Source: a virus. From it: a stretch of DNA of 28,112 bases. The notes below the pieces were generated by a model, which saw only the letters and a program-made list of their open reading frames with translations, had not been told where the DNA came from and did no database searches. Both the position numbers and the translations under genes were made by a program. Below are positions 1,558 to 15,911 of this stretch, in pieces; positions within the stretch are counted from its first letter, which is position 1; each line of letters starts with the position of its first letter. The stretch covers positions 1 through 28,112 of IMG/VR virus record IMGVR_UViG_3300017786_000098; one strand, 5' to 3'.

Positions 1558-1643
1558 GGTAGGCTTTCCTCCCATCGCTTCCCAAGGGGTGTGGCGAATC
1601 GCGTCTTAATGCAGTAAGCGACACTGTTAAAGCCAAGCCTACC
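1558..1643 (+). ncRNA. Candidate structured RNA (three-way-junction fold, possibly C4-like)
   Basis: This is the only sizeable non-coding gap (1551-1718). A perfect 9-bp closing stem joins GGTAGGCTT (1558-1566) and AAGCCTACC (1635-1643). It encloses two adjacent hairpins, each based on TCGC/GCGA: 1575-1578 with 1594-1597 (plus CCC/GGG inside) and 1599-1602 with 1618-1621 (or CTTA 1605-1608 with TAAG 1615-1618). An alternative closing pairing exists: GGCTTT (1562-1567) with AAAGCC (1629-1634). The 86-nt size and closed multi-hairpin form recall the C4 antisense RNAs of phages P1/P7, but I have no covariance evidence and no antirepressor gene is visible. It could instead be an mRNA leader or processing element for the next gene. 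Confidence 0.5.
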
Positions 1644-5799: not shown

Positions 5800-10162
<4,363 letters not shown>

Positions 10163-11688: not shown

Positions 11689-14208
11689 CTAGAAACGTAC
11701 CGCGCTTTGACTTGGTGATAGCCAAAAATCTTGCTCTTGTTCTCTACGCACCCTGCGCTCCATTCTTCTTAGGTAGCCTGGGTCATTCATCTCCATAAGG
11801 CCATATAATAATAAATAGTCCATTGCCGCTTGCGTCCAAAATATATTTGCAAATGGTGTATTGGCTTTAGCTACCCTCAAAAAATCACCAGCGTCTGCAT
11901 TTCCTTCTATAGCCTTCGCATAGATAGAGGCAACCCCCTGCAAAGTACCCACTGTTGGGCCAGCTAATGTTTCAGCTAGTGAACGTCCATACCTGTTGTA
12001 TTCACCAAACATAAAATCGCCATACAATCCTAGACCACCGCCTTGCAATAAGGCAGCTTTCATTGTGTCTGGTGAGCGAGGGTCACGAGGCTCTCTACCT
12101 TTTAAGACATCTTTTGCCATCATACTAACATATCCAGCGGCGGTTGCCGCTAATACTAGCCTAGATAGGTTCATAACACCGCCACTGCTCATTAAACCGC
12201 CCCCAGCAGCCGTTGTGGTCATCATTTGTTTTGTGATGTACGTAACAGGAAATGCCTTAAACTGAGCGAGGGTGCGTATTGCCTCGCCAGCAGCAGTGCC
12301 TCTTTGTGAGCCAAGCGTTAAAAAGTATTGCTCTCTAGCGCCTGGCGTTGGTATGGCTTCATCTGCTGTGTCAGAAAAGTAGGTAGTTATTTTGTCTGCT
12401 AAATCGTTTTTAAATTTATTTCTTAGCTCATCAGTCACATTTGTTGTCTGGTATTTTTTGGAAATTGCCGCATCAATCTGAGCATTTTCTAAAGACATAA
12501 CTGCGTCAGGCGTAATGTAGTCGACTCCATTTACATCCTCTGTTTCCATAAACTTTACTACACTCCAGTCATTCTCTGTAATGCCGTATAATTCTAAGGA
12601 ACGTTTTGTATTTGGTGGTATGTTTTTAAAAGATGTTTTTTTATAAAAACCTAAATCGGCGGCAAGTATAGCCGCTACTCCATTTTTACCGCTTTGTGTC
12701 CACCACTCCAATCCGTTTACTTTAAAAAACAGTTGCATAAGTTTGGATGTTTTGCCTGGAAAGCTATCATCTGAAGAAACCCTAGCGTGTATGTTTCCTA
12801 ATTTTGCTTCCATGCCAACCTTAGTCAGTAATCCTAACTTTTTCTTTTCTTTCGTAGGTAATAACGCTAATGATTGTTTGAAAGCCGTATAGTAAGAATT
12901 AAACACACCCCTATCTGTTCTTCTATTTAATGTCTCTGCTTTAGCCACAACGTCAGCAAAAGAAGATATAGTAGCAAAACCAAGTTTAGACATACTTTGC
13001 AAAGCTCTTGACATAAAACCAAGTTTAGCCAGGCTAACATTACCTGGAACATTTAAGCTATTACTGATAATGCCAAACTGACCCTCAATCTTTTTCCTGT
13101 TAAAACCAGACATAACTTTGTCGTTAGTTTTGTACTTTTGCTCTAAGTCATTCACCACCCTTGTAAGCATAGCTTCTGGGTTAGGCCCTAATGTTTCTAT
13201 TAAAGATAAGTTTCTAGCATCTCTTTCTAGGCCAGTCATAAACCTTTCGTTTAGGTTGCCCCTAGAATACTTTTGAGCGTACTCATACGCTGCATTTCCG
13301 TCTTTAAAATGTAACTTTCTTGACGCACTAAGTTTCCTAGCTAAATTGCTATATCCTGGCGTACCTATTAGTCCGACACCCTTGCCATCTATGCCGTAAT
13401 CTTGGTCTGCCCTAATGTGAACGCCAGTGACAAGACCATAATAAGACTCTTCTAAAAACTCATCAATAGATTGCCCAGGCTTTAAATTTTTAAATGTTCT
13501 TTCCGCGTCCAGCTTTGACTCTATAAAAGCTTTCCAATTTTCAACGCCATCTTTACGCATAAATATTGCGTCATGGTTTTGCGTCACAACATAATCATCA
13601 AGCTCACCAACATAAGCGCCAGCCGCATTTTTTCTTTGCAGTATAGCTTGCTGTACTTCTTCCATTGTGTCTGCAATTTGCTTTGCTTGTGGAGATGTAT
13701 TGGCCCCAACAGTGTCATCGCCATACCTATATAGGTATATCTCTCTGTCTAACGTGCCATCTCTAAATATTTTTTCTAAAGCTGGGTCTTTTTTATTTAG
13801 TGCTAACGCAAACGAACCAGAATAACGTAGCATCAACCCCTTTTGCTTTGCATCTATGCTATCCCTTGAGCCAGCCTTTAGCGTAGAATCGCCACCCAAC
13901 ATAGCTAATATAGCTTGAAAAGGGTTTTCTCCATAGTTTTCCATACGCTGCATCATCTGCCCGTATATCTTAGCTGATATAAGTTGTTCGCGTTTCTTTT
14001 GTGCAGCATTTATCTTGGCTTGTTTGTTTAGCTCTTGCGCTTCCTCTAAAACCTCTTGCAAGTCAGTTTGTGACTTTATTTTTCCAGGTCTGTTCCTTAG
14101 TCTTGCATCAAATAGTTTAGCAAGGTCTTGCGCTTCATCTGTAGTTATAGGTCTGCCAGCATCACTAGCAGTCCTTACCATTAAATCAATACATTCTTGA
14201 TACTTCAT
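11689..14208 (-). CDS. Large internal virion/ejection protein
   Basis: The protein has 839 residues and is the last of four consecutive candidates before the fibres, the position of T7 gp16. The N-terminal 75 residues are charged and helical. Most of the chain is predicted helical, without a transglycosylase motif such as ESGxNPxAxSxxGAxGLMQ. A hydrophobic, Gly-rich segment (about 668-697, TAAGGGLMSS then LVLAATAAGYVSMM) could insert in a membrane. The C-terminus (785-839, PFANIFWTQAAMDYLLLYGL, then NDPGYLRRMERRVRRE) matches a signature common to internal virion proteins of marine and gamma-proteobacterial podoviruses. T7 gp16 is 1318 residues, so this and the preceding 568-residue product may share its role. 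The 4-base ATGA overlap with the upstream gene supports coupling. Confidence 0.65.
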   Translation of the reverse strand: MKYQECIDLMVRTASDAGRPITTDEAQDLAKLFDARLRNRPGKIKSQTDLQEVLEEAQELNKQAKINAAQKKREQLISAKIYGQMMQRMENYGENPFQAILAMLGGDSTLKAGSRDSIDAKQKGLMLRYSGSFALALNKKDPALEKIFRDGTLDREIYLYRYGDDTVGANTSPQAKQIADTMEEVQQAILQRKNAAGAYVGELDDYVVTQNHDAIFMRKDGVENWKAFIESKLDAERTFKNLKPGQSIDEFLEESYYGLVTGVHIRADQDYGIDGKGVGLIGTPGYSNLARKLSASRKLHFKDGNAAYEYAQKYSRGNLNERFMTGLERDARNLSLIETLGPNPEAMLTRVVNDLEQKYKTNDKVMSGFNRKKIEGQFGIISNSLNVPGNVSLAKLGFMSRALQSMSKLGFATISSFADVVAKAETLNRRTDRGVFNSYYTAFKQSLALLPTKEKKKLGLLTKVGMEAKLGNIHARVSSDDSFPGKTSKLMQLFFKVNGLEWWTQSGKNGVAAILAADLGFYKKTSFKNIPPNTKRSLELYGITENDWSVVKFMETEDVNGVDYITPDAVMSLENAQIDAAISKKYQTTNVTDELRNKFKNDLADKITTYFSDTADEAIPTPGAREQYFLTLGSQRGTAAGEAIRTLAQFKAFPVTYITKQMMTTTAAGGGLMSSGGVMNLSRLVLAATAAGYVSMMAKDVLKGREPRDPRSPDTMKAALLQGGGLGLYGDFMFGEYNRYGRSLAETLAGPTVGTLQGVASIYAKAIEGNADAGDFLRVAKANTPFANIFWTQAAMDYLLLYGLMEMNDPGYLRRMERRVRREQEQDFWLSPSQSAVRF

Positions 14209-15911
14209 GGCCTAAACTTTCCTACCATACAGGTTGCCCCTGCATTTGTTACTTGCTCATATACCTCTGCTTTTGATACGTAACCATCAGCTTTAGCTAT
14301 GTCATTTAAGAATGATTGCGGTATCATACCTTGAGAAGCCATTGCGTCTACTTCAGCCTGTAATGTTAATATTTCAGGGTCTATATCCGCTTGCTTTTGC
14401 CTTGCAAATATTTGCGCCTCTATTTCCATTTCTTCTAATATTGGTAAAAACTCTTCTAAGTCTCCGTAATCTTCTTTTGCAGAATACACACGCTGTATTT
14501 CGTCATCCAACTCTTGTTGAGTGAAGCCGTCACCTTTTGTTCTATCTAACTCTAGTGCTTCGGATTGTGTTAAAGCGCCCTCTCTAGTCTGTATAGCATC
14601 GAACAGTTCTTCGTCTGTCATGCCCATGGGTTCTATGTTTAATTGAGATACTCTATCGCTTAACTCTAAGGATTCTTTGTACGCTTCAGCTTGAGGGTCA
14701 TTTATAGCAAAATAATTTTGGTTGCTCATTTCGTCTTTTCTAATGGCATCAGTCAAATCATCTATAGTTGCTCTATCGCTATAACTGTCCATCTTGTGAG
14801 GGAAAAACCCCTCTTCTTGTAGCATCAATATCATTTCGTCTATATCTTTGCCGCCCTTTTTTTGGACACTAAATTGCTTACCATCAAGCTCTGCTATCAC
14901 TTCAGCAGAGCCAATACTCTTGGGGTCTATTCTGCCATTCTGTCTAATAAAGTTAGTAATGTTAGTGGTAGGTTTTTTCTGAGCTGGGCGTAAAGCTGGT
15001 GGCAGTTTGTCAGGCTCTACCTTAGTTACAGCTAACGCACGTATTTTTTCGCCAACAGCCTCTGGTTTGTAATTAATAACATTATCAGCATCAAGGCCAC
15101 GCATAACAGGGTCTGCCTTGTAGACAGGCGTAGGGTCTATTGTCTTACCTTCTATAGCTTGACCTACACTAACTCTCATAGCTTCATTAACAGTTTGCGG
15201 ATTTGCCCTACGTAAAGCATCTCCTATCCTACCACTTACAGTAGCAATACCACCGCCTAAGATACCGCCAGCAGTTAAGTTTACAAAACTATCAAACAAA
15301 CCGTAGTTAGGGTCTTGCTGTATTTTAGAGCCAAGCAATGCTAGTGGCTCAAATGCAGCCGCACCTATTGCGCCTTCAGCAGCGCCAACTCCAAACCTTG
15401 CCGTACCTGTGCCATATCTTGTAGTTAATCCAGATGCAACCTTTGCAGCCGCTATTCTACCTGCTGCAGTAGCACCAATAGCGAATGGAGCCGCAAATGC
15501 TAAACCAATATTTACTGGGTCTAATATGCTGCCCATTAAAGATACACCTAACCTAGCGCTAGATGTGCCGATTGTGTTTCTGGCTCTTGATAAAACTAGG
15601 TCACGTTTGTAGCGCCTGTCATAAGATTCTGCTAAATCTTTTGCTGCGCTAATGTTTATTCCTTGGGGGCCAACTTCAACGCCTTGTCTAAAAAATGGGC
15701 TATTTTTATACTCTTCTAATGTTAATGTCTCTTCATCAGAAAACATCCTGCCTACAGCGCCACCAATGCTCCTTAAAGCATCAACGCCAAACCTTGCTGC
15801 TGACCTAAACTCTTGACCTAAAACAGCGCCTGTTTCGGCTGGTGTTGACTCAAAGTAGCTTGATACATGCCTAGTGGAGTTTGACAGTTTTGGGTAGAAA
15901 ACATCAGGCAT
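14205..15911 (-). CDS. Internal virion protein with hydrophobic N-terminal region
   Basis: The protein has 568 residues. After a polar start (MPDVFYPKLSNSTRHVSSYF) a large Gly/Ala-rich hydrophobic region (about 118-228; segments near 120-155, 173-193 and 206-226) could form membrane helices, as expected for proteins ejected into the host envelope. The rest is acidic and helical with several EExL-type segments. I see no peptidoglycan-hydrolase motif. The end is short and odd (NAGATCMVGKFRP), but the stop makes an ATGA overlap with the 839-residue gene, so it looks genuine rather than a frameshift. The function as an ejection-channel protein is inferred from position between the gp15- and gp16-like genes. 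Confidence 0.6.
   Translation of the reverse strand: MPDVFYPKLSNSTRHVSSYFESTPAETGAVLGQEFRSAARFGVDALRSIGGAVGRMFSDEETLTLEEYKNSPFFRQGVEVGPQGINISAAKDLAESYDRRYKRDLVLSRARNTIGTSSARLGVSLMGSILDPVNIGLAFAAPFAIGATAAGRIAAAKVASGLTTRYGTGTARFGVGAAEGAIGAAAFEPLALLGSKIQQDPNYGLFDSFVNLTAGGILGGGIATVSGRIGDALRRANPQTVNEAMRVSVGQAIEGKTIDPTPVYKADPVMRGLDADNVINYKPEAVGEKIRALAVTKVEPDKLPPALRPAQKKPTTNITNFIRQNGRIDPKSIGSAEVIAELDGKQFSVQKKGGKDIDEMILMLQEEGFFPHKMDSYSDRATIDDLTDAIRKDEMSNQNYFAINDPQAEAYKESLELSDRVSQLNIEPMGMTDEELFDAIQTREGALTQSEALELDRTKGDGFTQQELDDEIQRVYSAKEDYGDLEEFLPILEEMEIEAQIFARQKQADIDPEILTLQAEVDAMASQGMIPQSFLNDIAKADGYVSKAEVYEQVTNAGATCMVGKFRP

Follow-up and report, generated by a model that had tools for sequence, protein, structure and literature searches.

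What occupies the unusually wide gap between two genes in the early operon of a marine phage? The DNA that we analysed (the window), a virus record of 28,112 bases, encodes a portal protein with 57% identity to its counterpart in HTVC010P-type pelagiphages. Its early operon lies on the + strand and consists of a possible regulator, an ERF-like gene, an ssb-like gene (1245-1550), a 168-nt gap, a DUF6378 gene (PF19905; 1719-2021) and small genes. The structural genes are on the - strand, on which positions 5800-9807 encode a long tail-fibre-like protein with collagen-like GPTGPT repeats. The gap (1551-1718) stands out, as elsewhere in the operon a single base separates the ERF stop from the ssb start. 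The ssb-like gene is labelled by its acidic DEIPF tail and its place after the ERF-like gene; its product has no match in Pfam or PHROG and, judged from these sequence features, is probably a single-stranded-DNA-binding protein. The original prediction placed a structured RNA candidate at 1558-1643. Strong covariation over 19 relatives bears this out. The place and half of the stems were right, but the RNA is larger, reaching ~1700, and its fold differs. It is a real, conserved and uncatalogued structured RNA.

The comparison set comprised 19 distinct sequences, with relatives from IMG/VR. These range from near-identical ones to L020/L021, in which the ssb-like and ERF-like proteins are 44% and 61% identical to those of the window. 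Comparative analysis showed that ~1558-1700 (~143 nt), between the ssb-like and DUF6378 genes, encodes a conserved + strand RNA with the stem P1, the hairpins P2, P3 and P4 and two long-range helices, PK1 and PK2. The long-range complementarities came from reading the relatives L020 and L024 against the window and are outside the reach of a nested fold. The neighbouring PK1 and PK2 cross P1 and P2, so the molecule is compact and doubly pseudoknotted, and its single-stranded core is conserved.

The closing stem P1 (1558-1565 with 1636-1643) starts 7 nt 3' of the ssb-like stop codon in the window and directly at the stop codon in L020. It had been predicted as a perfect 9-bp stem (1558-1566 with 1635-1643); the ninth pair, 1566 with 1635, is present in the window itself, but eight of the nine pairs are kept in the relatives, with compensatory change. 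Six of these eight are invariant, and the outermost is G-C in most sequences and A-U in L020/L021. Just 5' of P2, the sequence CCUCC (1568-1572) is found in all relatives and is single-stranded in the model. It is part of the conserved unpaired core and resembles the anti-Shine-Dalgarno sequence. P2 (1575-1597; 1575-1581 with 1591-1597) corresponds to the first of two tandem hairpins in the original prediction, and it is kept, with compensatory change. Its second pair switches between C-G and U-A at least four times on the tree, the window itself has one U-U mismatch, and pair 5 is U.G in 17 of the 19 sequences. The P2 loop carries the 5' strand of PK1, GGGGU (1586-1590), whose partner is ACCCC (1695-1699). 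PK1 is paired in all 19 sequences and never varies, so it is without covariation support.

PK2 pairs GUCUUAAU (1603-1610) with AUUAAGAC (1686-1693), and a single A separates its 3' strand from that of PK1 within 1686-1699. All eight pairs form in 19 of 19 sequences, although four of the eight show double changes; the strands are GCCUUGAU/AUCAAGGC in L020 and GUUCUGAU/AUCAGAGC in L024. As a null comparison, we took about 60 unrelated contigs in which the P1 arms and CAACCCC occur together by chance. None of them is a covariance-model match and none forms 8/8 pairs, the best being 7/8 inside P1. P3 (GCAGU/ACUGU; 1611-1615 with 1623-1627) has two covarying pairs (CAAG/CUUG in L004, L010 and L024) and is lost in L020/L021. 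P4 (1644-1651 with 1666-1673) lies directly 3' of P1 and is conserved in position. Its arms are AGCGC/GCGCU in most sequences, UUUUGUGU/ACACAAAA in L020, where the sequence is wholly replaced, and UAGCG/CGCUA in L024, where it is partly replaced; a helix is predicted in each.

P3 takes the place of the second tandem hairpin of the original prediction (TCGC/GCGA, 1599-1602 with 1618-1621) and shares bases with it. That hairpin is present in the window, but it is broken in 10 of the 19 relatives. The relatives also spoke against two mutually exclusive conformations, which had been proposed from a competing pairing of GGCTTT with AAAGCC (1562-1567 with 1629-1634): this pairing is fully formed in only 4 of 19. 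Neither it nor the second hairpin covaries clearly beyond shuffles.

The pair statistics cover P1-P3, PK1 and PK2, with P4 left out of the count. Over the 19 sequences, 98.1% of 617 cells are paired. Double changes occur in eight pairs and 27 cells; shuffles gave 7.1 ± 2.0 cells and none of 500 was as high. The covariation score is 0.163, compared with 0.099 in shuffles (again 0 of 500 as high). When the structure was slid along the alignment as a control, 33-50% of cells were paired, with at most four double-change cells. On the ERF-gene tree, double changes from one Watson-Crick pair to another must have arisen independently at least 16 times (P1, 1; P2, 4; P3, 6; PK2, 5), a number that recombination between these phages could inflate. 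Aligning the homologous intergenic regions and looking for compensatory changes had been suggested as a check, and it shows covariation in the P1 and P2 stems. In addition, 57 paired cells are G.U on the + strand and become A-C mismatches if read from the other strand, which points to an RNA of the + strand.

Folding energy and family searches gave it no support. The nested fold of 1540-1690 has a z-score of -0.72, with 49 of 200 shuffles at least as stable; energy alone is therefore no proof of structure. A search against Rfam, suggested with C4 especially in mind, matched no family. The window as a whole has no match at gathering score, and the elements of the window, L022 and L024 gave only chance-level matches at E ≤ 10. 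With an ordinary energy and no Rfam match, neither test would have supported the candidate; the comparison of relatives does. No tRNA or tmRNA was found by ARAGORN or Rfam, and none of the known riboswitch aptamer models in Rfam matched the window, L022 or L024.

The supposed likeness to the phage C4 antisense RNA was not supported. RF01695 was unmatched both at gathering score (window) and at the permissive E ≤ 10 (window, L022 and L024). The two share being phage intergenic RNAs, and the size of C4 is close to that of the part first noticed. However, the RNA described here is pseudoknotted and folds differently, and no antirepressor gene was found. C4 precedes an antirepressor (ant) message and is complementary to it; the neighbour here is DUF6378 or an HNH gene. 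It had also been remarked that this phage shows no lysogeny genes. In the early region of the sister genome L282 we indeed found no integrase or antirepressor, but two small XRE-type helix-turn-helix regulators are encoded there (14196-14420, - strand; 12406-12579, + strand), one of them divergent from the exonuclease-ERF-ssb operon. The pair hints at a Cro/CI-like switch without a visible integrase.

The RNA appears confined to one group of phages. Searches with the two neighbour proteins found it in ~25 contigs of a single viral lineage, in one copy per genome. A DNA-pattern search of viral contigs revealed no further lineage. The same kind of search over 84,980 bacterial and archaeal genomes gave three chance matches, with a pattern that finds close copies only, and blastn against cultured phages did not find the RNA. 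Covariance models detected no copy in 56 loci from remoter ERF relatives and gave only weak matches in 16 whole records, nine cultured phage genomes being among the targets. We considered these weak matches as possible further members and rejected them; they lie antisense inside coding genes and were taken as chance. Where ERF relatives lack the RNA, 0-10 nt often separate the ssb stop codon from the gene that follows; the operon is tightly packed, and the RNA is therefore an extra piece in it. Within these collections, it is an element that one phage lineage either acquired or alone retained. A literature search returned no report on it.

What might the RNA do? The likeliest reading, to which we give about an even chance, is that it controls translation of the next gene in cis, in the manner of the T4 gene 32 operator or of a riboswitch, an idea that comes from its placement and from analogy. 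In every relative the RNA lies between the ssb-like stop codon and the Shine-Dalgarno (SD) sequence and start codon of the next gene. This includes relatives in which an HNH gene (~130 aa) is inserted exactly at that start codon and shares the RNA leader, the SD and the start position. The constant placement, the single copy, and the lack of a visible + strand promoter or terminator were counted in favor of cis control. No usual (sigma-70-type) + strand promoter was seen at the RNA locus. The terminator scan found no intrinsic terminator; P4 is A/U-rich and is not followed by a U-run in L020, and the tail after P4 has no conserved U-run. The DUF6378 gene has a ribosome-binding site GAGG at 1710-1713 and a start codon at 1719 (together 1710-1721). 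PK1 is separated from the SD by 9-10 nt in 10 of the 11 relatives examined and by 16 nt in L020, among the most distant. The 3' edge of the RNA thus lies ~10 nt before the next SD, where the state of PK1 and PK2 would affect 30S entry. This is within the expected 30S footprint on the next start codon, and a knotted leader edge inside that footprint suggests translational control.

In the proposed mechanism, the RNA would act as a cis-acting control element within the polycistronic early mRNA. It would fold once the ribosome has cleared the stop codon of the ssb-like gene, and access of the 30S subunit to the following start codon would then be impeded or allowed by the folding or unfolding of PK1 and PK2. 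The trigger could be the binding of a small ligand or of a protein made by the phage, for which the ssb-like product is a candidate. The controlled gene would be DUF6378, or HNH in the genomes that carry that insertion. The neighbours themselves allow no guess at a ligand, since their predicted structures are of low confidence (mean pLDDT 72 for DUF6378 and 62 for the ssb-like protein) and a fold search with both models gave no significant match. Several observations count against cis control. In the relatives we found no conserved alternative pairing that would mask the SD, and hence see no expression platform. Masking of the SD by CCUCC or P2 was considered and rejected, as the predicted partners vary among relatives and none is conserved. 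The invariance of PK1, the wider spacing in the most distant relatives and the absence of UUAAA repeats weigh on the same side.

These repeats belong to the closest studied parallel. In T4, the pseudoknot that the phage Ssb recognises lies 5' of the SD of gene 32, and the homing endonuclease gene segG overlaps it (PMC535899). The RNA described here resembles the T4/RB69 operator in being a phage-mRNA pseudoknot 9-16 nt 5' of GAG(G), with PK2 supported by covariation and PK1 by complementarity, in its link to an Ssb gene and in its endonuclease neighbour, here HNH. However, the T4 operator is ~28 nt long, precedes gene 32 itself and has UUAAA/UAAA repeats on its 3' side, which are not conserved here, whereas this RNA, at ~143 nt, has two long-range helices besides P1-P4. 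It also follows the ssb-like gene and precedes DUF6378 or HNH, and is not in an ssb leader. Among translational riboswitches, preQ1-II and SAM-II are pseudoknotted. They share with this RNA a compact pseudoknot ending near the SD and a conserved unpaired core, but no Rfam model matches and the SD itself is outside the pseudoknot here. STAXI is also a pseudoknotted RNA near ssb, and near other DNA-binding-protein genes; it is a repeated, simple pseudoknot, unlike this RNA, which has no Rfam match. It is possible, though we hold it only tentatively, that the RNA represents a new ligand- or protein-sensing class of riboswitch or ribozyme complexity, specific to marine phages, that regulates the operon between the ssb-like and DUF6378 genes.

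Other functions could be served from the same place. The RNA could be a trans-acting small RNA or RNA sponge, either processed out of the operon mRNA or transcribed from a promoter of its own, in which the single-stranded CCUCC would serve as a seed for pairing with the ribosome-binding sites on mRNAs of the host or the phage. The unpaired state of CCUCC in the model and its presence in all relatives are consistent with this, as is the compactness of an element confined between the ssb stop and the leader that follows, and an antisense role is near the C4 idea of the original prediction. We nevertheless regard it as unlikely: there is no promoter or terminator-like site of its own, the operon position is always the same, the conserved nucleotides reach far past the seed, and the two long-range helices suggest a tertiary core. 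Literature searches for C-rich anti-SD small RNAs returned unrelated papers only. Since the RNA keeps its link not only to the next start codon but also to the ssb-like gene, a role as a 3'-UTR element of the latter fits too. It would then be a knotted barrier against 3'-5' exonucleases, or a processing site that uncouples ssb. In the relatives, 0-7 nt separate the ssb stop from P1, and the ssb-like gene is constant while the downstream gene varies between DUF6378 and HNH. Such elements, however, need stability and not a conserved single-stranded core, and the energy of the nested part is ordinary; we rank this explanation next, and also as unlikely.

A self-cleaving ribozyme of a new class, processing the polycistronic message, seems improbable to us. 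Two pseudoknot helices, a conserved unpaired core and a setting among phage genes are what one expects of a candidate, but no Rfam ribozyme family matched and the sequence names no cleavage site. Small ribozymes are expected to be 50-80 nt (PMC10085705), a length that this RNA exceeds. Least probable is that the RNA and the HNH gene form one mobile endonuclease unit, with a guide- or intron-like RNA and HNH lost in some genomes. HNH does directly follow the RNA, before DUF6378, in 8 of the 18 relatives on the tree, the most distant branch included (carriers: L004/L050, L005/L056, L008, L016/L051, L018, L019/L046 and L020-L023). Nevertheless, HNH is scattered on the tree and the RNA is universal, and another phage, L200, has an HNH relative and no such RNA. 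The HNH gene is therefore the visitor and the RNA the resident, and we rejected the joint unit. The HNH protein is short and matches ordinary phage HNH families.

To our knowledge, few regulatory RNAs have been described from small marine podovirus-like phages. This one sits in a recombination operon (exonuclease-like, ERF-like and ssb-like genes) and has stayed intact through at least 16 compensatory changes. Together with its complexity, this suggests that these phages control DNA metabolism post-transcriptionally. The covariation permits exact tests, as single and compensatory PK2 variants occur naturally and are directly comparable.

A different RNA gene was seen at the same junction in one of the more distant ERF relatives. 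In L253, a tRNA gene (2363-2446; RF00005, 32.9 bits, above gathering score) lies right after the ssb-like stop codon. It was not called by ARAGORN, and the close sibling L258 is without it. The junction between the ssb-like gene and the next gene may be a landing site for RNA genes.
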